NCBI GenBank assembly: GCA_026417035.1
Contig: JAOAEA010000002.1
Span: forward strand, 62,001 to 126,000
Length of the DNA: 64,000 nt
Direction of reading: 5' to 3'
Source of the DNA: Burkholderiales bacterium
GTDB taxonomy: Bacteria > Pseudomonadota > Gammaproteobacteria > Burkholderiales > SG8-39
Shown here one piece after another: positions 4,939 through 16,393 of the stretch. The position numbers and the translations under genes are program-made. The notes under the pieces are model-generated. The model ran no database searches. It was not told the origin of the DNA and worked only from the letters and a program-made list of their open reading frames with translations. Every line of letters begins with the position of its first letter. The first letter of the stretch is position 1.

Positions 4939-5982
4939 TCACGGCGCCCGGCTTCTACCTTTACCCGATGCGCCCGGGCGCGGCGAGGACGAGCGGCGCC
5001 GCGCGGGAACGAACTCCTCCTCCTCGCCGCCTGCCGAAAAGGCTGCGATCCGGCCGTTTTCCCACATGAGCAGCGCCCAGGGAGGGTTCGGGCGGTCCGG
5101 CGAGCGCCAGAACCACGGGCTCATGCCGACGTCGAGGTCGAAGATGCGCCCGCCATAGCAGGTGATCCGCGGCGGGCGCGCGGTGTGCCCGGTCACGATC
5201 ATGTCCACGCCGGCCTGCTCGCAGATCCGCGCGGCCTCTTCCGGCGACGCGTCCTCCAGCCGCCAGAAGGAGTGGTTCCAGAAGAAGCTCGCAGGGCTCA
5301 TGAGCCGGGGATGGCGGTACTTTCTTACTGAACCACCGCGTTCGGCCGTGGTCGGCTTCAAGGCGTTTTCGACCTCCTCCCGGGCGCGTTGCAGCGCACG
5401 CTCATCGCGGAGCGGCTCGGCGAGGTCGGCGTGCAGGAAGAGGACTTTCCGCCCCGCGATCCGCGCATCGTAAATGGGCAGAAGCGTGCGGATCCAGTCG
5501 CCGACGTCGCCACCGCGGGCCATGCGCCTCGCGTAGCTCTCGAGCGCCGCCTCTTCGGTCGGCCCGAATTCGCGCAGAAACCGCTGGCCACCGTTCTGCG
5601 GGTCGCCGTGGATCGTGAGCTCACCATAGCGCTCGAGCGCACCAGGCCGTCCCTCGCGGGCGAGCGCGCGGGCAGTGTCGAAGGCTTCGAGGGCGAGGAG
5701 CTCGTGGTTGCCGAGGAGGGTCACCACCTGCCCGGGTGCGCTCCTTTCCTCGAGCTGCCGCAGCCGCTCGATGATCGCGAGCGCGCTCGAGCCGCGGTCG
5801 ATGTAGTCCCCGGTCAGCACGAGCCGCACCCCCGCGGCGAGCGCATCGGGTGTCCCCGGATCGAAGATGCGGTAGCGCCCGTCGATCGCCTCGAGGAGCG
5901 CCTTGAGCGCCGGGTAATAGCCGTGCAGGTCGCCGATCGCGACTACCGCCGGCCGTGCGGGGGATCTGCCGGATGCACCCAT
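4939..5982 (-). CDS. Calcineurin-like/PPP-type metallophosphatase
   Basis: 347 residues with the three metal-binding signatures of the serine/threonine phosphatase PPP fold: GDLHGYY near residue 17, GDYIDRG near residue 58 and LLGNHE near residue 92. A later His motif occurs in VTGHTARP. These sites hold a binuclear metal centre that hydrolyses phosphoesters; possible substrates include phosphoproteins and dinucleoside polyphosphates. The last 40 residues are basic and low complexity. The start is supported by GGGAGG six bases upstream. It lies downstream of the membrane protein gene at 6083-6703 on the same strand and ends convergently with the ALDH gene. Confidence 0.8.
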   Translation of the reverse strand: MGASGRSPARPAVVAIGDLHGYYPALKALLEAIDGRYRIFDPGTPDALAAGVRLVLTGDYIDRGSSALAIIERLRQLEERSAPGQVVTLLGNHELLALEAFDTARALAREGRPGALERYGELTIHGDPQNGGQRFLREFGPTEEAALESYARRMARGGDVGDWIRTLLPIYDARIAGRKVLFLHADLAEPLRDERALQRAREEVENALKPTTAERGGSVRKYRHPRLMSPASFFWNHSFWRLEDASPEEAARICEQAGVDMIVTGHTARPPRITCYGGRIFDLDVGMSPWFWRSPDRPNPPWALLMWENGRIAAFSAGGEEEEFVPARRRSSSPRPGASGKGRSRAP

Positions 5983-7230: not shown

Positions 7231-7353
7231 GTGAGCGTGACGATCGAGATCGACGCGAGCGCGCCGGCTGGCGTACCCGAGAACGTCATGCGGACGGTCA
7301 GCCAGAACTACCGGAGCCTGAGGTTCAAGGGCTTCGGGTTCGAGGCGAAGTAG
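7231..7353 (+). pseudogene. Remnant of the C-terminus of a DUF499-like P-loop ATPase
   Basis: A 40-codon frame, GTG to TAG, begins VSVTIEIDASAPAGVPENV and ends SLRFKGFGFEAK. It resembles the extreme C-terminus of large DUF499 ATPases, where a short acidic strand is followed by RTV...LRFKxxGFE. The in-frame codon just before it is TAA, so the remaining roughly thousand residues expected for such a protein are missing. DUF499 proteins are known from phage-defence-associated gene sets with methylases and PLD-like proteins. The PLD-like gene starts 93 bases downstream on the same strand, consistent with a decayed operon. The assignment rests on a short match. Confidence 0.4.
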
Positions 7354-7445
7354 GGGTCGCGATGCTCCAACCGTAGTCCTTGCGGCGCTCAGTGCGAGTA
7401 CCGCGTGGTGCCGGAGCTATCGAATTCACCAAGGGGATCCGAAGG

Positions 7446-8489
7446 ATGGCGGACGGGGTGAGCGTGCTGAGGAACTCCAAGCAAATCCGCGAGGCAGTCC
7501 GGTACGTGCTCAGCGACCCGAACCGTCGGCGGGTCGTAATGGTCGCTTTCGTCGGCAAGGGGGCGATCGGCTATCTGCCGAATCCCGCGGGGATCGAGCT
7601 CGTCTGCTGGGACAAGGAAGGGGGCACCAATCCCGACGCAATCCGGGAGTTGCAGGGCCACAAAGTGAAAGTGTTGTTCGCCCGAAGCCTTCACACGAAG
7701 CTGTACTGGGCGCAGGGCCGTGGCGCGGTGATCGGTTCAGCCAACCTCAGCGACAACGGACTCGGGGACGGAAGGCTGGTCGAAACGGCGGTCCGCCTTC
7801 CGGCGGAGGCCGTTGACATCGACGCACTGTTGGCAGCCGTTGAGACCGAGCCGGCATCCAGGGAAAGGCTTCTCGACCTGGACCGACGAACGAATCGGTT
7901 TCGAGCGAGGAACGGGCGAAACGACTTCCTGGAACGGAAGCAGCCCCGGACACGACGCCGCAGCTTCGGCGATTGGTGCCGGGAACACAACCGCAAGGCG
8001 TGGCGGCTGTTCGCGTTCGCGGAGGGTTTTGACGCCGAGCAGGAAGAAGAACTCGAACGACTGGCGGATGAGAACGGGTGGGGAAGGCCGGAGTGGTTCT
8101 GGGCCGCCAAGGACGCCCACACCAGACCCAACGAGTGGCTCTTGATGGTCGACCTGGCCAAGCCCGCGGAATCGTCGAAGGCCGACAGCATCACCTGGGC
8201 GATTGCAGAGGAGCGGGTCTCGACAAGGGGCTCCAAAGTGCTGCGTCGCCGCGATACCCCCTATGTGGCCGTGCAGAAAAGGACGATTGCCGAATTGGGT
8301 CCGCCGCCATTCGACGCCCGCGAGAGCGCCTTCCAGAAAGCTGTTCGCCAGCTGCTGAGGCGGCATGGCGTGGACGGCTACCGGGCCAGCCTCCGATTCG
8401 CTCCCAGGGGCGAGTTGAACGAAGAGCAGCTAAAAGAACTGCAAGACTTGTACGCGAGCTTCAAGCCGCGCTCGGGGGCCAAGGCTTAG
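7446..8489 (+). CDS. Phospholipase D-like domain protein, single HKD motif
   Basis: 347 residues. The start at 7446 (MADGVSVLRNSK) is preceded by AAGGGG at good spacing. The single PLD motif is H83-x-K85 in LHTKLYW followed by GSAN (residues 97-100) and LSDNGLG. One motif per chain means it would act as a dimer, as in Nuc-type or restriction-associated PLD nucleases. The remaining C-terminal 200 residues are charged and unassigned. Codons include ATC/GAA/AAA and other less GC-rich choices that are rare in neighbouring core genes. Lying behind a DUF499-like remnant suggests a former defence operon; nuclease activity is inferred. Confidence 0.7.
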   Translation: MADGVSVLRNSKQIREAVRYVLSDPNRRRVVMVAFVGKGAIGYLPNPAGIELVCWDKEGGTNPDAIRELQGHKVKVLFARSLHTKLYWAQGRGAVIGSANLSDNGLGDGRLVETAVRLPAEAVDIDALLAAVETEPASRERLLDLDRRTNRFRARNGRNDFLERKQPRTRRRSFGDWCREHNRKAWRLFAFAEGFDAEQEEELERLADENGWGRPEWFWAAKDAHTRPNEWLLMVDLAKPAESSKADSITWAIAEERVSTRGSKVLRRRDTPYVAVQKRTIAELGPPPFDARESAFQKAVRQLLRRHGVDGYRASLRFAPRGELNEEQLKELQDLYASFKPRSGAKA

Positions 8490-8594
8490 TGCTTAGAACT
8501 TAGAACAGAGGGAGCGCGCACACGCCGCCGCGTTGCCTTGAACCGCAGGCATCAGCCCCGCGGAGGGCATCACGCAGCGTGACGTACTCCGGTG

Positions 8595-8641
8595 CCGCAC
8601 GGACTGACCGATCGCTCTAGAGCGACGTACTCTCCGTGCGG
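8595..8641. repeat. Nested dyad symmetry between convergent PLD-like and WYL genes
   Basis: A perfect 9-bp inverted repeat (CCGCACGGA at 8595-8603, TCCGTGCGG at 8633-8641) encloses a perfect 14-bp palindrome TCGCTCTAGAGCGA at 8612-8625. In addition GACGTACTC occurs as a direct repeat at 8581-8589 and 8624-8632. The element lies in the 205-base gap between two convergent genes. It could be a bidirectional terminator without a T-run, a protein-binding site or a recombination site. Nothing else in the gap was recognised. Confidence 0.55.
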
Positions 8642-8694
8642 GTATCGTGGCCTGCTTGGTTTGGCGGGGTCTCCATCGGCTGAGGCCGGGACGA

Positions 8695-9705
8695 TTACGG
8701 CAACCGGCCCGCTTGGCCGCTTCGGACATAGCGTGTTCCCGCGATGGTCGACCGGTGGCGCATCGCGGTGCGGCAAGCCTTCGGCGCAACGATCTCAACG
8801 CTGTCGCCGAACCCGCGAAGCCACCACTCCAACTGCCGCGTCCACAGCACGTCCGCGACCAGCCGGTGGGTCGTGTCGTCGATCCGCGTGAGCTCCTGGT
8901 CCGCGGTGAGCGGCGTTTCCTCGAGGTGCTCGCCGGCGCCGTCGTGGAAGATCGCCTCGAGGCGGATCTTCTGCTTGCCGCCGAAGCCGAACTCGCCGGA
9001 CTCGATGAAACGGTCGATGTCGAAATCCCTGGGCACCGCCGCCCGGTCGGGCAGTTTCTTCGCCCGCTGGACGCGGTGTAGCGCGAGCGTGCGCGCGTCC
9101 GGGAAGGCGTAGAACCCGGCGACCAGGTAGATGACGCTCCCGCGCTGGACGAGCGCCAGCGGATGGATGCGCCAGGTCTGATCGCCGAGCCCGCCACGTT
9201 TCCGGTAAACGATCTCGAGCTGGCATTCCTCGAGGAGCGCGTCGCAGACGGCTTCGTGCACCTCGCGGCGGATGTTCGGCGGAAGGAGTGGCTGGCTCGT
9301 CGGCACCTGGCGGATCTTGTCTGGCCAGCGGGCGACGCGCGAATGCTCGGCGCTGCGAAGCCGGCGACGCGCTTGCTCGAAGAATGGCTCGAGCTCGCGG
9401 ATCGCGGACGGCGGCATGAGCGGGCGCAAGTGCTGCTCGACGAGCTGGAAGACCACGGCCTGAGGCGTCGTAAGGCCAGGAAGCGAGACCGCGGACCCCT
9501 GTCGGAACGACCAGCCGTAGGGACGGTTACGGTCGCTCCGGACGAGGGGCAGGGCCCGCGAGAGCTCGTTCAGGTCGCGCTCGACGGACCGCTTGTTGAC
9601 CCTAAACCCCGCACGGTCGAGCCCGTCGGCGATCTCAGCGGCAGTCGCCTTCCGCGGCGCCGGCGGGATCAGTTCCAGCATCTTGAGGATTCGGCGGGTC
9701 TCCAA
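8695..9705 (-). CDS. WYL-domain transcriptional regulator
   Basis: 336 residues from a TTG at 9705, chosen because AAGGAG sits eight bases upstream; an ATG at 9681 is the alternative. The N-terminus is a winged helix (ATAAEIADGLDRAGFRVNKR, then SVERDLNEL). The middle holds the WYL sensor domain (QTWRIHPLALVQRGSVIYLV), and the C-terminus is the WCX-type domain ending LEWWLRGFGDSVEIVAP. WYL proteins sense nucleic acid-type ligands and often repress phage-defence genes. It is divergent from the DUF2779 nuclease gene, and a TGCGACA-N5-TGTCGCA palindrome lies 48 bases upstream of its start. Likely self-regulating repressor of the island. Confidence 0.85.
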   Translation of the reverse strand: METRRILKMLELIPPAPRKATAAEIADGLDRAGFRVNKRSVERDLNELSRALPLVRSDRNRPYGWSFRQGSAVSLPGLTTPQAVVFQLVEQHLRPLMPPSAIRELEPFFEQARRRLRSAEHSRVARWPDKIRQVPTSQPLLPPNIRREVHEAVCDALLEECQLEIVYRKRGGLGDQTWRIHPLALVQRGSVIYLVAGFYAFPDARTLALHRVQRAKKLPDRAAVPRDFDIDRFIESGEFGFGGKQKIRLEAIFHDGAGEHLEETPLTADQELTRIDDTTHRLVADVLWTRQLEWWLRGFGDSVEIVAPKACRTAMRHRSTIAGTRYVRSGQAGRLP

Positions 9706-9753
9706 GAGAGCGACTCCTTGCCCTGTCCGATGCTTGCAAGTTTCGCACCCGGC

Positions 9754-9772
9754 TGCGACAGTTCGTGTCGCA
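9754..9772. promoter_or_regulatory. Palindromic operator candidate, copy 1
   Basis: TGCGACA-GTTCG-TGTCGCA, a perfect 7-bp inverted repeat with a 5-base centre. It lies between the WYL regulator (start 9705, minus strand) and the DUF2779 nuclease (start 10046, plus strand). A second copy with one mismatch sits at 11562-11580 before the AAA+ gene. Length and spacing suit a dimeric regulator; the WYL protein is the obvious candidate. The rest of the 340-base gap (9706-10045) shows no gene. Confidence 0.6.
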
Positions 9773-10045
9773 TGAAGCGGGACAATGTCTCGGGAGGCGC
9801 CAGGCGGACGGTCCGGCGCAATATGCATGGGAGTACGGTCGCCACACCCGGCCCCGGTGCGCATGGTGAACGGGCCAGCGCGCGCGGAAGAGGGCCGCCT
9901 CGGAACCCGTCGTGGAAGGACGGATACGTTCGGGCAAGGAGCCGCCGGGGGCCGGGTGCCCAACTGGTTCCGCAGCCGAGAGGACTACGATCTTCCGCTG
10001 CGCGGTGGGTTGGGACAGACTGCGGCGATGCCGGGGAGAAGATCA

Positions 10046-11515
10046 GTGGCGGCCATTCGGCTCTCGAAGAGCAAGCTCATCGCCTTTCGCCAGTGTCCCA
10101 AGCGGCTCTGGCTGGAGGTCCATCGCCCCGAGCTCAAGGACGAGTCCGGCGCCGAGCGCCGCCTCCAGGCCGGGCACAGCGTCGGCGACGTGGCGCGGCG
10201 CCTCGTGCCTGACGGGCTCCTGGTCGCGCACGAGGGCGACCCCGGCGCGGCTCTGGCCGAGACCCGGAAGGCTGTCGCCTCGGGCGCCAACCGGCCGCTC
10301 TTCGAGCCGGCGTTCCGCCACGGCGACCTGTTCGTCCGGGCGGACGTTCTGTTCGACCCGAAGGGGGCCGCGACGCTCGTGGAAGTGAAGTCGAGCGGGA
10401 GCGTCAAGGATCATCACTTCGAGGACGCCGCGATCCAGACGCACGTCCTGAGAGGCGCGGGGATCGACGTCGCGCGGACCCACGTCGCCCACGTCAACAC
10501 GAAATGGATCTATCCGGGCGGCGGCGCTTACGCGGGGCTGCTCACCGAGGTCGACGTCTCCAGGGCGATCGCGCCTGTCGTGAAGGAAGTCCCCACTTGG
10601 CTTCGCGACGCGCAGGGTGTGGCGTCGGGGCGCGAGCCCGAAGTCGAGATGGGCGCTCACTGCCACGACCCGTTCGAATGTCCGTTCGCGGACTACTGCA
10701 CCGCGATTGCGGGACCCGGTCCGGCGTTTCCGGTCGAGATCCTGCCGGGGAACGGCGGCAAGGCCCTCGCGCGCAGGCTGCGGGAGGCGGGCTACGAAGA
10801 CCTCGCCAAAGTGCCGGCGACGAAGGTGCCGGAGGGGCTCTTTCGCCGAATCCACCAGGCCACCAGGAGCGGCCGCGTCCACCTCGACCGGGGCGCCCGG
10901 CGCGCGATCGGCGAATGGGCCTTCCCGCGCTATTGGCTCGATTTCGAAACCGTCGCCTTCGCGGTGCCGATCTGGGCGGGAACGCGGCCGTACCAGCAGA
11001 TTCCGTTCCAGTGGTCCTGCCACGTCGAACGCAGGAGCGGGGAGGTCGAGCACTTCGCATTCCTCGACTTGTCAGGGCGCGCCCCCGCCCGCCAATGCGC
11101 CGAAAAGCTCGTCGCGACGCTCGGCAAGCGCGGCGCGATCGTCGCCTACCACGCCCAGTTCGAGCGGCGCGTGATCCGCGAGCTGGCGGAGCGGTTCAGG
11201 GGGTTCGCGCCCGCGCTCCACGCGATTCACGACCGCATCGTCGATCTCGAGCCGGTGGTGAAAGCGCACTACTACCACCGCGACATGATGGGCTCGTTCT
11301 CGATCAAGGCCGTGCTGCCGACGATCGCTCCGGCGCTCGACTATGCGAACTTGGGCGAGGTGCAGGACGGCGACGGTGCCCAAGGCGCCTACCTGGAGGC
11401 GATCCACCCCGACACGCCGCGGGAGCGGAGGGCGGCACTGAAGCGGGACCTCGAGGCCTATTGCGCGCAGGACACCCGGGCGATGATCGTGATCGCGGAG
11501 CGGCTCGTCGCGTAG
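10046..11515 (+). CDS. DUF2779 protein: Cas4/RecB-like nuclease fused to a DEDD-type exonuclease domain
   Basis: 489 residues from a GTG at 10046, selected because GGAG lies eight bases upstream and the protein then begins with the family-typical RLSKSKLIAFRQCPKRLWLE. The N-terminal half has Asp100 in RADVLF and E113-V-K115, matching PD-(D/E)XK nucleases, plus C17 and a C206/C212/C218 cluster suited to an iron-sulfur cluster as in Cas4 and AddB. The C-terminal half has D299-x-E301 (WLDFET) and Y472-x3-D476 (YCAQD), fitting a DEDDy exonuclease fold. It lies between the WYL regulator and the AAA+ gene. A role in DNA processing or defence is inferred. Confidence 0.75.
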   Translation: MAAIRLSKSKLIAFRQCPKRLWLEVHRPELKDESGAERRLQAGHSVGDVARRLVPDGLLVAHEGDPGAALAETRKAVASGANRPLFEPAFRHGDLFVRADVLFDPKGAATLVEVKSSGSVKDHHFEDAAIQTHVLRGAGIDVARTHVAHVNTKWIYPGGGAYAGLLTEVDVSRAIAPVVKEVPTWLRDAQGVASGREPEVEMGAHCHDPFECPFADYCTAIAGPGPAFPVEILPGNGGKALARRLREAGYEDLAKVPATKVPEGLFRRIHQATRSGRVHLDRGARRAIGEWAFPRYWLDFETVAFAVPIWAGTRPYQQIPFQWSCHVERRSGEVEHFAFLDLSGRAPARQCAEKLVATLGKRGAIVAYHAQFERRVIRELAERFRGFAPALHAIHDRIVDLEPVVKAHYYHRDMMGSFSIKAVLPTIAPALDYANLGEVQDGDGAQGAYLEAIHPDTPRERRAALKRDLEAYCAQDTRAMIVIAERLVA

Positions 11516-11561
11516 AGCAGGGGGCTGGCGCAGTCGGCGCGCTGCGCCGGGCGCGTTCGCG

Positions 11562-11580
11562 TGCGACATCCGCTGTCGCG
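11562..11580. promoter_or_regulatory. Palindromic operator candidate, copy 2
   Basis: TGCGACA-TCCGC-TGTCGCG: the same arms and the same 5-base spacing as the site at 9754-9772, with one end base changed. It starts 47 bases after the DUF2779 stop codon and ends 42 bases before the AAA+ start, directly upstream of the Shine-Dalgarno hairpin. Its presence implies a separate, co-regulated promoter for the AAA+ gene. Confidence 0.6.
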
Positions 11581-11594
11581 TCGCGGGCGGAGAC

Positions 11595-11616
11595 TCTCCT
11601 TCACAGACGAAGGAGA
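11595..11616 (+). promoter_or_regulatory. Hairpin that buries the Shine-Dalgarno sequence of the AAA+ gene
   Basis: TCTCCTTC (11595-11602), a six-base loop ACAGAC, then GAAGGAGA (11609-11616) form a perfect 8-bp stem. The 3' arm contains the AAGGAG that would serve the ATG at 11623. Translation of the AAA+ protein would therefore be low unless the stem is opened by a protein, an RNA or an incoming ribosome. Confidence 0.5.
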
Positions 11617-11622
11617 TGCCGC

Positions 11623-13914
11623 ATGACCCGACCGACCCGCAAGACGACTCCGCAACCCCTCCCGAACCTGCGTCCCGCCGAAATCCGCGCGGCGTGGGCG
11701 ATGGCCGCGCTGGCCCATGCGCATCCCGACCGCGTCCTCACGCAGTCCGACGGCGAGAACACCTGGCTCACGCTGCTCCCCGCGCTTTCCTGGACCGAGC
11801 ACGAGGCCGCGGCCCTCGCGAGAGTCGTCCGGCGCAATCCGTCGCGATTCCTGGACGGCGGGCCGATGCGCTCGCTTCCGTGGGATGACCCCGCGGCGCT
11901 CGCGCGGGCGCTGTCCAACGTGCCCGTGCGCCGCCGGAAAGGACTGCTGCGTCTGCCGAAGGCGGACCTCGGCCTCGCCTACCGCCAGCTCTACGAGCAG
12001 GATGCGCGCACGGTCCTCGCGCAGCTCGAACGCGCCCGGGGTGAGCTCGAGGTCGCCCGCGCGATGATCGACGATCCGGTGCGCCGCAACCTCGGACACC
12101 TGCGCACGCTGCTCTCGTGGGACGAAACGATCCTGACGCTCCTCGAGGTCTCCGCCACCGCGCAGCAGAACGAGCCCTTCAGCTCGGCGCTCGCCAACGT
12201 GAGCACCTGGGGTGCGCCGCTCGCGGTGGAGCTCGCGGCGTCCGCATTCCACCTCGACAACGCCGCGTTGCAGTCAGCGCTGGAGCTGGACGGTTTCCTG
12301 CACCGCTGCGGGATCATCGACCCGCCGCTGCAGGTGATGGACCTCGGCTCGCTGTTCTGCCTGGGCGACACCGGGCGGCGGCTGCTCTGGGCCCGAGCCG
12401 AAACGCCGGCCGAGCTGATGCGCTGCGTAATGACCGAGGTAGCGCCCGGCGAGCTCACGCCGGCCGACTTCGCGCACCTGCGCGACGACTTCGACCTCAT
12501 CGTTCGCGCCCTGCGCAGGGCGCTCGACGGCCGCCAGCGCGGCGTCAACGTCCTGCTCTACGGGCCGGCGGGCACGGGCAAGAGCGAGCTCGCGCGGCTC
12601 GCCGCGAGCATGGTGGAAAGCGCCGCCTTCGAGGTGCGCATCGAGAGCGAGCGTGGCGACGAGCCCCGCCGCGCGGAGCGGCTCCAGGCGCTGCTGGTCG
12701 CGCAGCGGATCCTCTCGCCACAAACGCGCGCGGTGCTCGTGATGGAGGAGGCCGAGGACGTCTTCCCGCACAGCGAGGCCTCGGTTCTCGCGCAGCTCTT
12801 CGGGATGCCGGCGAGGTCGCACGCGGGGAGCAAGGCCTGGATCAACCGGCAGCTCGAGACGAACCCGTTTCCGATCATCTGGATCTCGAACGCGGTGGAG
12901 CAGATCGATCCGGCCTTCCTGCGCCGCTTCACGTACCACCTCGCGATGGACCGGCTGCCGTACGCGGCGCGCACGCGGATCGCCGAGAAGCACCTCGGTG
13001 CGCTGGGCGTATCGCAGCGGCTCGCCGAGGACGTCGCCGCCGACCCGAGCCTCGCGCCGGCGAGCATCGCCGCGGCGGCGCGGTTCGCCGAGTTGGTCGG
13101 CGAGCGCGACGCGGCCGCGCGGGAAAACCACGTCCGCAGGCAGCTCGACGGCTACCGCAGGGCGGTGGGCGATGCGCCGGTGGGCCGTCGCAAGGCAAGG
13201 GAACTGCCCTACAGCATGGAGCTCGTCAACACGCGGGCGGCGTACGGCCTCGACCGGATCGTCCAAGCTCTGGCCCGTAACGAGCAGGGCACGCTGCTCT
13301 TCCATGGCGCCCCGGGAACCGGCAAGACCGCGCTCGCGGCGCACATCGCCGAGCGCACCGGGCGACGCCTCGTGAAGCGCACGGCGAGCGAGCTGCTTAG
13401 CAAGTGGGTAGGCGAGAGCGAGAAGAACATCGCGCGGCTCTTCCGCGAGCATGCGGACGGCGAGACAGTGCTCCTCATCGACGAGGCAGAGGGGTTGCTC
13501 CACGGTCGGGAGACGGCCGAGCGGGGGTGGGAACTCACTCAGACGAACGAGTTCCTCCGCCGCATCGAGGAATTCGAGGGCATTCTGATCGTCGCGACGA
13601 ATCTGCTCGGCCGGATCGACGACGCCTTCCTGCGGCGTTTCCAGTTCAAGGTGGAGTTCCTGCCCATGCGCCTCGAACAACGGGCTGCGCTCTTCGCGAC
13701 GGCGCTCGACCTGGCCGAGATTCCCGAGAAGGCCAAGCAGCGGCTCGCGCGGCTCGACCGGATCACCCTCGGCGACTTCGCGAACGTCCACCGTCAATAC
13801 GTGCTGCTCGGCGATACCCCGACCGTCCCGGGCTTCCTCGCCGGGCTCGAGGCCGAGCACGCGGCCAAGCCGGCGAAAGAGGGTGGCCCGATCGGGTTCC
13901 TGACCTCGAGGTGA
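11623..13914 (+). CDS. Tandem AAA+ ATPase of unknown function
   Basis: 763 residues. An N-terminal helical region of about 290 residues, with no recognised family, precedes two AAA+ modules. Module 1 has Walker A GPAGTGKS (313-320), a Walker B-like VLVMEEAED (about 371-379) with Glu in place of the usual Asp, and an arginine pair in FLRRF. Module 2 has GAPGTGKT (562-569), LLIDEAEG (about 617-624) and IDDAFLRRF. Architecture is FtsH/Cdc48-like but without a protease. It follows the nuclease by 107 bases and has its own palindrome and SD hairpin. Probably a remodelling ATPase acting with the nuclease; this is inference. Confidence 0.8.
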   Translation: MTRPTRKTTPQPLPNLRPAEIRAAWAMAALAHAHPDRVLTQSDGENTWLTLLPALSWTEHEAAALARVVRRNPSRFLDGGPMRSLPWDDPAALARALSNVPVRRRKGLLRLPKADLGLAYRQLYEQDARTVLAQLERARGELEVARAMIDDPVRRNLGHLRTLLSWDETILTLLEVSATAQQNEPFSSALANVSTWGAPLAVELAASAFHLDNAALQSALELDGFLHRCGIIDPPLQVMDLGSLFCLGDTGRRLLWARAETPAELMRCVMTEVAPGELTPADFAHLRDDFDLIVRALRRALDGRQRGVNVLLYGPAGTGKSELARLAASMVESAAFEVRIESERGDEPRRAERLQALLVAQRILSPQTRAVLVMEEAEDVFPHSEASVLAQLFGMPARSHAGSKAWINRQLETNPFPIIWISNAVEQIDPAFLRRFTYHLAMDRLPYAARTRIAEKHLGALGVSQRLAEDVAADPSLAPASIAAAARFAELVGERDAAARENHVRRQLDGYRRAVGDAPVGRRKARELPYSMELVNTRAAYGLDRIVQALARNEQGTLLFHGAPGTGKTALAAHIAERTGRRLVKRTASELLSKWVGESEKNIARLFREHADGETVLLIDEAEGLLHGRETAERGWELTQTNEFLRRIEEFEGILIVATNLLGRIDDAFLRRFQFKVEFLPMRLEQRAALFATALDLAEIPEKAKQRLARLDRITLGDFANVHRQYVLLGDTPTVPGFLAGLEAEHAAKPAKEGGPIGFLTSR

Positions 13915-14126
13915 ACCGATCGGATTGCAGGGAGCCCGGATTGGGGAAACTTGCGCGCCTTCGCTGCGGGGAGTGCAGCGGTCGCGACGCGGAGGCAGGG
14001 GGTTCGGGACTCCCGCGGCGGCGCCCCTCGGCTCAGCGGGTCAACGCGTTGCGGTCTGGGCCTCCGCGGCGGCAGGGCTCACTTCGCCGTTTGACCGTAA
14101 TACAGCAATACAGTTGGCGTGTTGCC

Positions 14127-14393
14127 ATGAAAGCCACGATCGAGATTCCGGACGAGCTTTACCGGAAAGTCGAAGCCAAGAGCGCTCTGCTGGGCAAGCC
14201 GGTGCGCGAGGTGACGGTCGAGCTCTTCGAGCGCTGGCTCGCGGAGGAGCGGGCGCCGGGCGGTCGCGAAGCGCCCGAAGCGTGGCTCGCGGCCCTGCTT
14301 GCCCGTGCTGACGAGGCGATCGGGAGCGCTCAACCCGGGCCCCCGGCGCGTGAGGAGCTTGAGGCGGGGCGGAACCGGCTGGATCGCAGGTGA
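14127..14393 (+). CDS. VapB-like antitoxin
   Basis: 88 residues beginning MKATIEIPDELYRKVEAKSA, a ribbon-helix-helix/AbrB-like antitoxin N-terminus of the kind paired with PIN toxins. The C-terminal part (EAWLAALLARADEA) is the expected toxin-neutralising tail. Its stop overlaps the GTG of the following PIN-domain gene by four bases, the usual arrangement of vapBC. The upstream 209-base gap includes AATACAG repeated at 14099-14105 and 14107-14113, a possible autoregulatory site. Because the toxin reading frame is broken, the antitoxin may now be an orphan. Confidence 0.7.
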   Translation: MKATIEIPDELYRKVEAKSALLGKPVREVTVELFERWLAEERAPGGREAPEAWLAALLARADEAIGSAQPGPPAREELEAGRNRLDRR

Positions 14394-14813
14394 CCGCCAT
14401 CGTCATCGATGCAAGCGTTTGGGTTGCGGACGCGGACACGCGACCGATCCCTTCAGCGCGGCGAGCCGCGGCTTCCTCGCGGTGCTGACAGCACGGCGGC
14501 TCGCCGTCGAGCTGCCGGCACCGGCGCGAATCGAAGGGGCGTGCGCGCTCGCCCGGCGGCTGCGCAATGCCGATCTCGCCGTTGGGGTCACCCCGGGCAT
14601 GCTGCGCTCACCGCTCGTTCGCGTCCGTCCACTCGATGCGGCGACGGTGGACGCCGCCGTGAGCGAAGGGGCGCGAGCATTCCTCGCGGAGCTGACGCGG
14701 TCTACGCGGCGCTCGCCCGACGCCTCGGCGCGGAGCTCGTCTCGTGGGACGAGGAGCTCCCGCGACGCGCGGGCGCGGTGACCCCGGAAGCCTCGGTCGC
14801 AAAGCAGCGGTAA
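14390..14813 (+). pseudogene. VapC-like PIN-domain toxin, disrupted by two frameshifts
   Basis: The gene starts with GTG inside the antitoxin stop and reads TAIVIDASVWVAD, the first PIN-domain Asp motif. The next part continues in another frame (DPFSAASRGFLAVLTARRLA to DAAVSEGARAF). The last part is in the third frame (GADAVYAALARRLGAELVSW then DEEL), containing the conserved ADAVY and SWD acidic motifs, and stops at 14813. Joined together the pieces give a normal roughly 140-residue VapC RNase. Shifts lie near 14432-14445 and 14680-14700. Either the toxin is inactivated or the assembly has two indel errors. Confidence 0.75.
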
Positions 14814-15175: not shown

Positions 15176-16393
15176 GTGTCCCACACTTCTCCTCCCGCAT
15201 CGCGGGAGCATCTCTTCACCTCGGAATCGGTTTCCGAGGGGCACCCCGACAAGGTCGCCGACCGGATCTCGGACGCCGTCCTCGACTGGCTGCTCGCGCA
15301 CGACTCCGCGGCGCGCGTCGCGTGCGAGACGCTCGTCGCCAAGAACTTGGTCGTCGTCGCCGGCGAGTTCGGCTCGGCGCGGATTCCGGATCTCCTCGCC
15401 GTGCTCGAGGGCGCGATCCCCGGCATCGTGCGCGAAACGGTGCGCGGGATCGGCTACGACGCGGCGAGCGGCTTCGACGCCGGGGCGTGCGAGGTGAAGC
15501 TCTCCATCTCGGCGCAGTCGGCGCACATCGACCAGGGCGTGAGCCTCGGTGGCGGCGAGCTCGGCGCGGGCGACCAGGGGCTCATGTTCGGCTACGCCTG
15601 CGACGAGACGCCCGAGCGGATGCCGCTCGCGATCTCGCTCGCGCACGCGCTCGTCCGCCGTCAGGCCGAGCTGCGCCGCTCGGGCGAGCTCCCCTGGCTG
15701 CGCCCCGATGCGAAGAGCCAGGTGACGGTGCGCTACCGGGGCTCGACGCCGGTGGCGGTCGAGAAGGTCGTGCTCTCGACGCAGCACGCGCCGGAAGTCG
15801 ACAACCGCACGATCGAGACGGAGGTGAAGCGCAGGATCATCGAGCCGGTGATCCCCGAGGCGTTGCGCTCGGCTGGGATCGAGCTCCTCGTAAACCCCAC
15901 CGGGCGCTTCGAGATCGGCGGCCCGCTCGCCGACACCGGCCTCACCGGCCGCAAGATCATCGTCGACACCTACGGCGGGAGCTGCCCGCACGGCGGCGGG
16001 GCGTTCTCGGGAAAGGATCCGACCAAGGTCGATCGCGCCGGCGCCTATGCCGCGCGCGAAATCGCGAAGACCGTCGTCGCCGCCGGCCTCGCGCGCCGTT
16101 GCACGGTCCAGGTCGCCTACGCGATCGGCCGCGCGCAGCCGGTTTCGGTTTACGTGGACACCCAGGGGACGGGTGCCGCGGACGACGCGGTGATCGAGCG
16201 TGCGGTGACCGGTCTCTTCGACCTGCGTCCGGCCGCGGTGATCGAGCGGCTTGCGCTGCGCCGGCCGATCTATCGGGCGACTTCGGCCTACGGGCACTTC
16301 GGAAGGCCCGAGTTTCCGTGGGAGCGGACGCCGCTCGCCGGGGCGCTACGGGCCGCGGTGCACGCCGCGAGCGGCGTCCCGCAGCCCCTCTGA
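15176..16393 (+). CDS. metK: S-adenosylmethionine synthetase
   Basis: 405 residues from a GTG start with GGAG nearby; typical bacterial MetK length. Signatures include [20 protein letters not shown] at the N-terminus, [15 protein letters not shown] and the P-loop-like [20 protein letters not shown] in the C-terminal half. The enzyme joins methionine and ATP to make SAM, releasing phosphate and pyrophosphate, as a cytoplasmic tetramer. Its leader carries a SAM-II riboswitch, so it should be repressed by its own product. The next gene starts 22 bases downstream. The sequence is moderately divergent from the common betaproteobacterial type but all key motifs are present. Confidence 0.95.

Follow-up and report, generated by a model that had tools for sequence, protein, structure and literature searches.

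The DUF2779 family was assigned in a prediction of 2014 to the 3'-5' exonucleases, with DUF83 (PD-(D/E)XK-like) as its second domain (PMC3985635), and its members (the UU173 family), like the TM0106-type RecB-like nucleases (COG2251), combine a Cas4/PD-(D/E)XK-like domain and an RNase H-like DEDD exonuclease in one chain (PMC3985635). Among WYL proteins, DriD and PafBC bind single-stranded DNA (ssDNA) and are activated by it (PMC12340889, PMC11804915), and BrxR-type members are co-located with defence systems (PMC9122601). We analysed a 64,000-nucleotide stretch of DNA (the window) from a Burkholderiales genome, a 249-contig draft, in which a DUF2779 gene stands between a divergent WYL regulator gene and a gene encoding a tandem AAA ATPase. 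These three genes, about 5 kb in all, are best read as an uncatalogued candidate defence module under putative WYL control. We give an even chance to the proposal that they act as a mobile, mix-and-match defence-type cassette in which a nuclease and an unfoldase operate under the WYL protein.

The trio is repeatedly co-located in other genomes. Of 349 genomes sampled evenly from the same order, 33 had AAA relatives (E 1e-30), 35 had DUF2779 relatives (E 1e-10), and 16, the window's own included, had both, against 3.3 expected (odds ratio 14.7, Fisher p = 1.1e-9). The two genes were no more than 10 kb apart in 12 of these 16, and the remaining four carried them on different contigs of draft genomes. 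The initial annotation had proposed that the nuclease and the AAA+ ATPase form a functional pair and had named a lack of co-occurrence as grounds for dropping the idea; within the order, co-occurrence was borne out. AAA, DUF2779 and WYL profiles were run over all fetched loci and, as controls, over twenty 20-kb regions taken from ten genomes in the order. The WYL subfamily of the cassette was found within 1.5 kb of 16 of the 29 DUF2779 loci, usually 8-50 bp downstream; one of the 16 is a weak match. None of the three profiles matched anywhere in the 400 kb of control DNA. Annotated plasmids of Rhodoferax antarcticus and Diaphorobacter carry AAA-DUF2779-WYL, and annotated Sphingobium and Azospirillum plasmids hold the trio in other arrangements; a search for adjacency across many genomes, as the annotation had advised, thus found the trio recurring both in the order and on plasmids.

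At six other loci (L109, L144, L145, L146, L181 and L183) the AAA and DUF2779 genes lie on the same strand, separated by 50-141 bp in an operon-like manner. Tightly packed trios usually run AAA-DUF2779-WYL, and the order in the window, with WYL divergent and DUF2779 before AAA, was not met at any other locus examined. On the AAA tree, the adjacency label requires 10 changes, compared with 15.3 for shuffled labels, and at least 6 of the 10 are forced by well-supported branches. Because adjacency has changed repeatedly and gene orders differ, we conclude that the cassette was assembled several times, a history compatible both with recurrent selection for a partnership and with a general tendency of such genes to gather in defence islands. 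Its make-up is modular, not fixed; DUF2779 and WYL are each also found without AAA, and AAA is also found without DUF2779.

The surroundings of the DUF2779 loci resemble those of defence islands. The 145 genes within 8 kb of these loci matched 98 PADLOC families at E 1e-10, compared with 8 families for 129 control genes at the same threshold; the counts are of families, not genes, one gene being able to match several models, and simple open reading frame (ORF) calling was used for both sets. The enrichment that the annotation had anticipated was therefore found, the families near the loci including Dpd, DrmD, AbiEii, PD-T4-3 and several candidate systems. A Sphaerotilus plasmid has a WYL-AAA pair adjoining BREX-2 genes, and on the Rhodoferax plasmid AAA-DUF2779-WYL is followed directly by the PADLOC candidate genes PDC-M27A, B and C. 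None of the three PDC-M27 proteins (one unknown, one PLD-like and one SNF2-type helicase) was seen in the window, whose own PLD is a different, shorter protein. No full named PADLOC system was found among the scanned proteins, whose likeness to Cas4, WYL, IetA and TRIP13 models is that of single proteins or single domains, and neither the PADLOC library nor the open literature searched describes the cassette. The annotation's view that this combination is not a recognised named system stands.

Two further families adjoin DUF2779-WYL pairs. One lies directly beside the pair in two genomes (L148:10218-10985 and L179:11174-12028), its L148 member matching the PADLOC PD-T4-3 defence model (E 1e-23). 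The other, which is uncharacterised, adjoins the pair at two loci from different bacterial families (L178:13105-14487 and L179:7844-8707).

The DUF2779 gene (10028-11515, + strand) encodes a protein of 495 amino acids that scores 146.4 bits against PF11074 (gathering score 23.3). From its sequence it is predicted to be a dual-site nuclease, with a Cas4/RecB-like, iron-sulphur (Fe-S) PD-(D/E)XK domain and a DEDD 3'-5' exonuclease-like domain. In a 27-sequence alignment the window protein retains the Fe-S-type cysteines C23, C212, C218 and C224, the PD-(D/E)XK residues D106, E119 and K121, and the acidic DEDD-domain residues D305, E307, D406 and D482, and these positions are invariant or nearly so among the 27 homologues. 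The assignment of catalytic residues among them follows these folds. The Cas4/DEDD identity given by the annotation is upheld by the PF11074 score and by the presence of the residues of both nuclease domains. An identity as CRISPR-associated Cas4 was not supported: the PADLOC Cas4 model matches the protein only weakly (E 5e-8), and no cas1 or cas2 adaptation genes were present among the proteins scanned at 7.4-14.8 kb, a part of the window. The UU173 subfamily model gives a score of 46, far below its cut-off of 225, and, in contrast to the DUF2779/UU173 and TM0106-type proteins, the locus in the window has its ATPase as a separate Cdc48-type protein. No relative of solved structure was found by sequence or by profile, and viral contigs yielded no DUF2779 relative. 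The literature searched held no characterisation of the family beyond the exonuclease prediction cited above.

The WYL gene (8695-9705, - strand) encodes 336 amino acids with a WYL domain (38.9 bits) and a C-terminal WCX domain (40.9 bits), both exceeding the Pfam cut-offs. Its longest ORF begins at 9963, and the likely start is the TTG at 9705, which has AAGGAG ahead of it; start sites were picked by ribosome-binding sites and the length of relatives. The protein scores 336 bits (E 1e-104) against a leave-one-out profile of 17 cassette WYL proteins, built without the window, and belongs to the cassette's own subfamily. Solved WYL regulators match it distantly (E about 1e-5) over residues 35-319, and no Pfam helix-turn-helix match was obtained although these regulators align from residue 35. 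As in BrxR-type regulators, a WYL domain is combined with a C-terminal WCX-type domain in a gene beside defence-type genes; unlike them, the window protein is not attached to BREX, and its similarity to solved WYL regulators is distant. The region between the starts of the WYL and DUF2779 genes (9706-10027) is a probable shared promoter/operator region. Clear operator palindromes sought in it were not found, and it holds only weak, imperfect ones, such as that at 9720-9753 (74%).

The tandem AAA ATPase gene (11623-13914, + strand), with AAGGAG ahead of its start, encodes 763 amino acids with two PF00004-type ATPase domains (Pfam AAA, 125 bits), arranged as a helical N-terminal region followed by two AAA modules. 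Walker A motifs lie at residues 314-321 and 562-569 and Walker B motifs near 371 and 616; both Walker A motifs, the Walker B glutamates and the arginine motifs are intact. Among solved structures, the protein is closest to VCP/Cdc48 in sequence and to Rix7/Cdc48 in fold. The D1-D2 tandem layout is common to these unfoldases and the window protein, which differs from them in its identity of only ~20%, in an N-terminal region without an assigned fold and in being encoded by a bacterial accessory gene. The AlphaFold model, made with few relatives in the alignment, is good for the two ATPase modules only, the N-terminal 240 residues being helical and of low confidence. Sequence and model together point to a predicted Cdc48/Rix7-type protein unfoldase or remodeller. 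The annotation had called the ATPase a DUF499 protein; DUF499 is not in the reported Pfam matches, and we rejected this identity in favour of the Cdc48/Rix7-like one. The second module falls into the broad AAA class of IetAS/IteA (PADLOC IetA, E 9e-30), whereas the window protein has tandem modules, with the match restricted to the second, and no protease partner was seen; at 95.7 bits against a cut-off of 510, it is not an IteA equivalog.

Relatives of the AAA protein also occur outside the trio. A genome-contig scan with this protein gave mainly generic AAA unfoldases and was left out of the context analysis. Four AAA relatives were found on viral contigs; a tandem AAA relative (L273:7389-9389; 38% over the ATPase modules) lies on a 75-kb IMG/VR contig classed as viral. 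At L163-L170, L092 and L195, neither DUF2779 nor WYL accompanies the tandem AAA genes, which belong to families f38, f31 and f49; this suggests a solitary role too, and the context is repeated in f38, where the gene adjoins a tripartite-tricarboxylate-receptor-like gene. In four genomes a tubulin/FtsZ-like GTPase gene lies within about 100-600 bp of a tandem AAA gene (loci L149:9733-10668, L150:10091-11026, L171:546-1805, L181:5613-6800 and L231:857-1459). The two GTPase genes that were scanned match Pfam Tubulin (E 1e-19 and 1e-23), and the others are profile matches. Such a pairing of a Cdc48-type ATPase with a tubulin homologue in bacteria is reminiscent of the eukaryotic tubulin-severing AAA proteins; no AAA association of FtsZ-like families turned up in PMC2875224.

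If the three proteins act together, the WYL regulator would sense a nucleic-acid signal of infection or damage, its ligand being ssDNA or another, and would set how strongly the divergent DUF2779-AAA pair is expressed. Proteins on invading or replicating DNA may then be stripped off or unfolded by the Cdc48/Rix7-type ATPase, and the Cas4-like Fe-S/DEDD exonuclease would degrade the ends thus exposed. A bolder form of this proposal, which we consider rather unlikely, is an undescribed anti-phage system: the unfoldase would free phage DNA of replication proteins or of a protective coat, the dual-active-site Cas4/DEDD exonuclease would destroy that DNA, an ssDNA-sensing WYL protein would be the switch, and the module would be swapped between defence islands, with a tubulin/FtsZ-like GTPase added in some genomes. 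A real physical partnership would link a Cdc48-like unfoldase with the breakdown of DNA in bacterial immunity, a combination absent from the PADLOC library and the open papers searched, and would supply a function for DUF2779. The cassette is small and has intact copies on plasmids of named, cultured bacteria, so that it is directly testable.

A narrower arrangement, possible though doubtful in our judgement, would make DUF2779 and WYL the working unit and AAA an independent defence gene that lands nearby through shared islands, with no partnership of nuclease and ATPase. DUF2779-WYL pairs lacking AAA (L158, L159, L161, L177, L179 and an Aliarcobacter plasmid) and AAA-WYL pairs lacking DUF2779 (L173, L188, L192 and L241) speak for it, as do the scatter of AAA-DUF2779 adjacency over the AAA tree and the island-like surroundings of the DUF2779 loci. 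Yet the 50-141 bp same-strand spacing in several lineages and the strong genome-level co-occurrence go beyond what loose clustering would lead one to expect, as judged without matched pairs of defence genes. Other observations weigh against the nuclease-unfoldase cassette itself. General defence-island clustering could also yield an adjacency that arises repeatedly; the closest DUF2779 relatives of the window (G177, 63%, and G014, 55%) have no AAA or WYL match in the DNA examined; the AAA gene often stands alone, in family f38 at recurring chromosomal sites; and residues 1-146 of the AAA protein have a predicted local distance difference test score (pLDDT) below 50 in the AlphaFold model. A phylum-wide sample of 398 genomes had DUF2779 in 22, AAA in 41 and both in 5, with no new adjacent AAA-DUF2779 pair.

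The same genes might instead constitute a DNA-repair or stress module, in which the WYL protein would sense damage-derived ssDNA and switch on a nuclease for processing ends together with a remodeller for clearing away stalled complexes of protein and DNA. DriD and PafBC are ssDNA-activated damage regulators of the WYL type, Cas4/RecB-like plus DEDD enzymes suit end processing, and at L148 the cassette has a gene for a Y-family (error-prone) DNA polymerase on its flank, with one so annotated in the L191 stretch. We nevertheless hold a repair module to be improbable, since patchy occurrence (about 10% of the order's genomes), plasmid carriage and defence surroundings favour accessory defence over housekeeping repair. 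Chance or decaying assembly in the window genome, with three genes that no longer cooperate and lie among an unrelated PLD gene, a toxin gene that is broken and a surplus metK, would account for the VapC-like frameshifts, the foreign metK and a gene order unlike that of all other loci. It is the least probable of these explanations, and very improbable, as neither the DUF2779 nor the AAA ORF is truncated, all their catalytic motifs are kept and the WYL protein is intact and of the cassette's own subfamily.

The initial annotation had set the trio in a single six-gene island with a PLD-like gene and a vapBC pair, marked off by deviant codon use and flanked by a core metK. All six features were located in the sequence at roughly the claimed positions. 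The single island was rejected: the PLD gene is not with the trio elsewhere, the VapC-like gene is frameshifted, metK is extra, and the ATPase does not belong to DUF499. For the trio, codon use is a weak argument: G+C content at third codon positions (0.87-0.90 for DUF2779, AAA and WYL) is close to that of neighbouring genes, and overall G+C content falls to 0.64-0.65 over the PLD gene only.

We regard the PLD and toxin genes as lying beside the cassette and not as belonging to it. The PLD-like gene (7446-8489, + strand, 347 amino acids) is present and shows one HxK...S/N motif, whereas its PLDc_2 score of 21 bits is below the Pfam cut-off of 27; no solved relative was found by sequence, and its homologues, present in 5 other genomes of the 349, are never at a cassette. 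Of the proposed vapBC pair, a VapB-like (ribbon-helix-helix-like) ORF (14127-14393, + strand; translation MKATIEIPDELYRKVEAKSALLGKPV...) and a PIN/VapC-like remnant (14390-14813, + strand) were recognised by inspection only, and neither has a Pfam match. The PIN-like frame is broken twice, with frames at 14300, 14302 and 14301 each holding one part and no intact PIN ORF; the breaks could be decay or an assembly error.

To the right lies metK (15176-16393, + strand), whose product shares 58% identity with the MetK encoded on contig C182 (G000:C182), the genome's own copy, which in turn is 95% identical to that of a congener. These identities indicate that the 15176-16393 gene is a second, divergent copy acquired from elsewhere, and its role as a core flank was rejected; the accessory region holds an extra S-adenosylmethionine synthetase gene in it. 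For a calcineurin-like phosphoesterase gene to the left (4939-5982), a search of 22 related genomes gave no relative at E 1e-30; this gene is probably also accessory. Because of this gene and the acquired metK, the accessory stretch reaches past the limits originally drawn on both sides. The congener G001 is collinear with the window from about 18 kb rightwards, its contig ending inside the gene at 17.1-18.6 kb.
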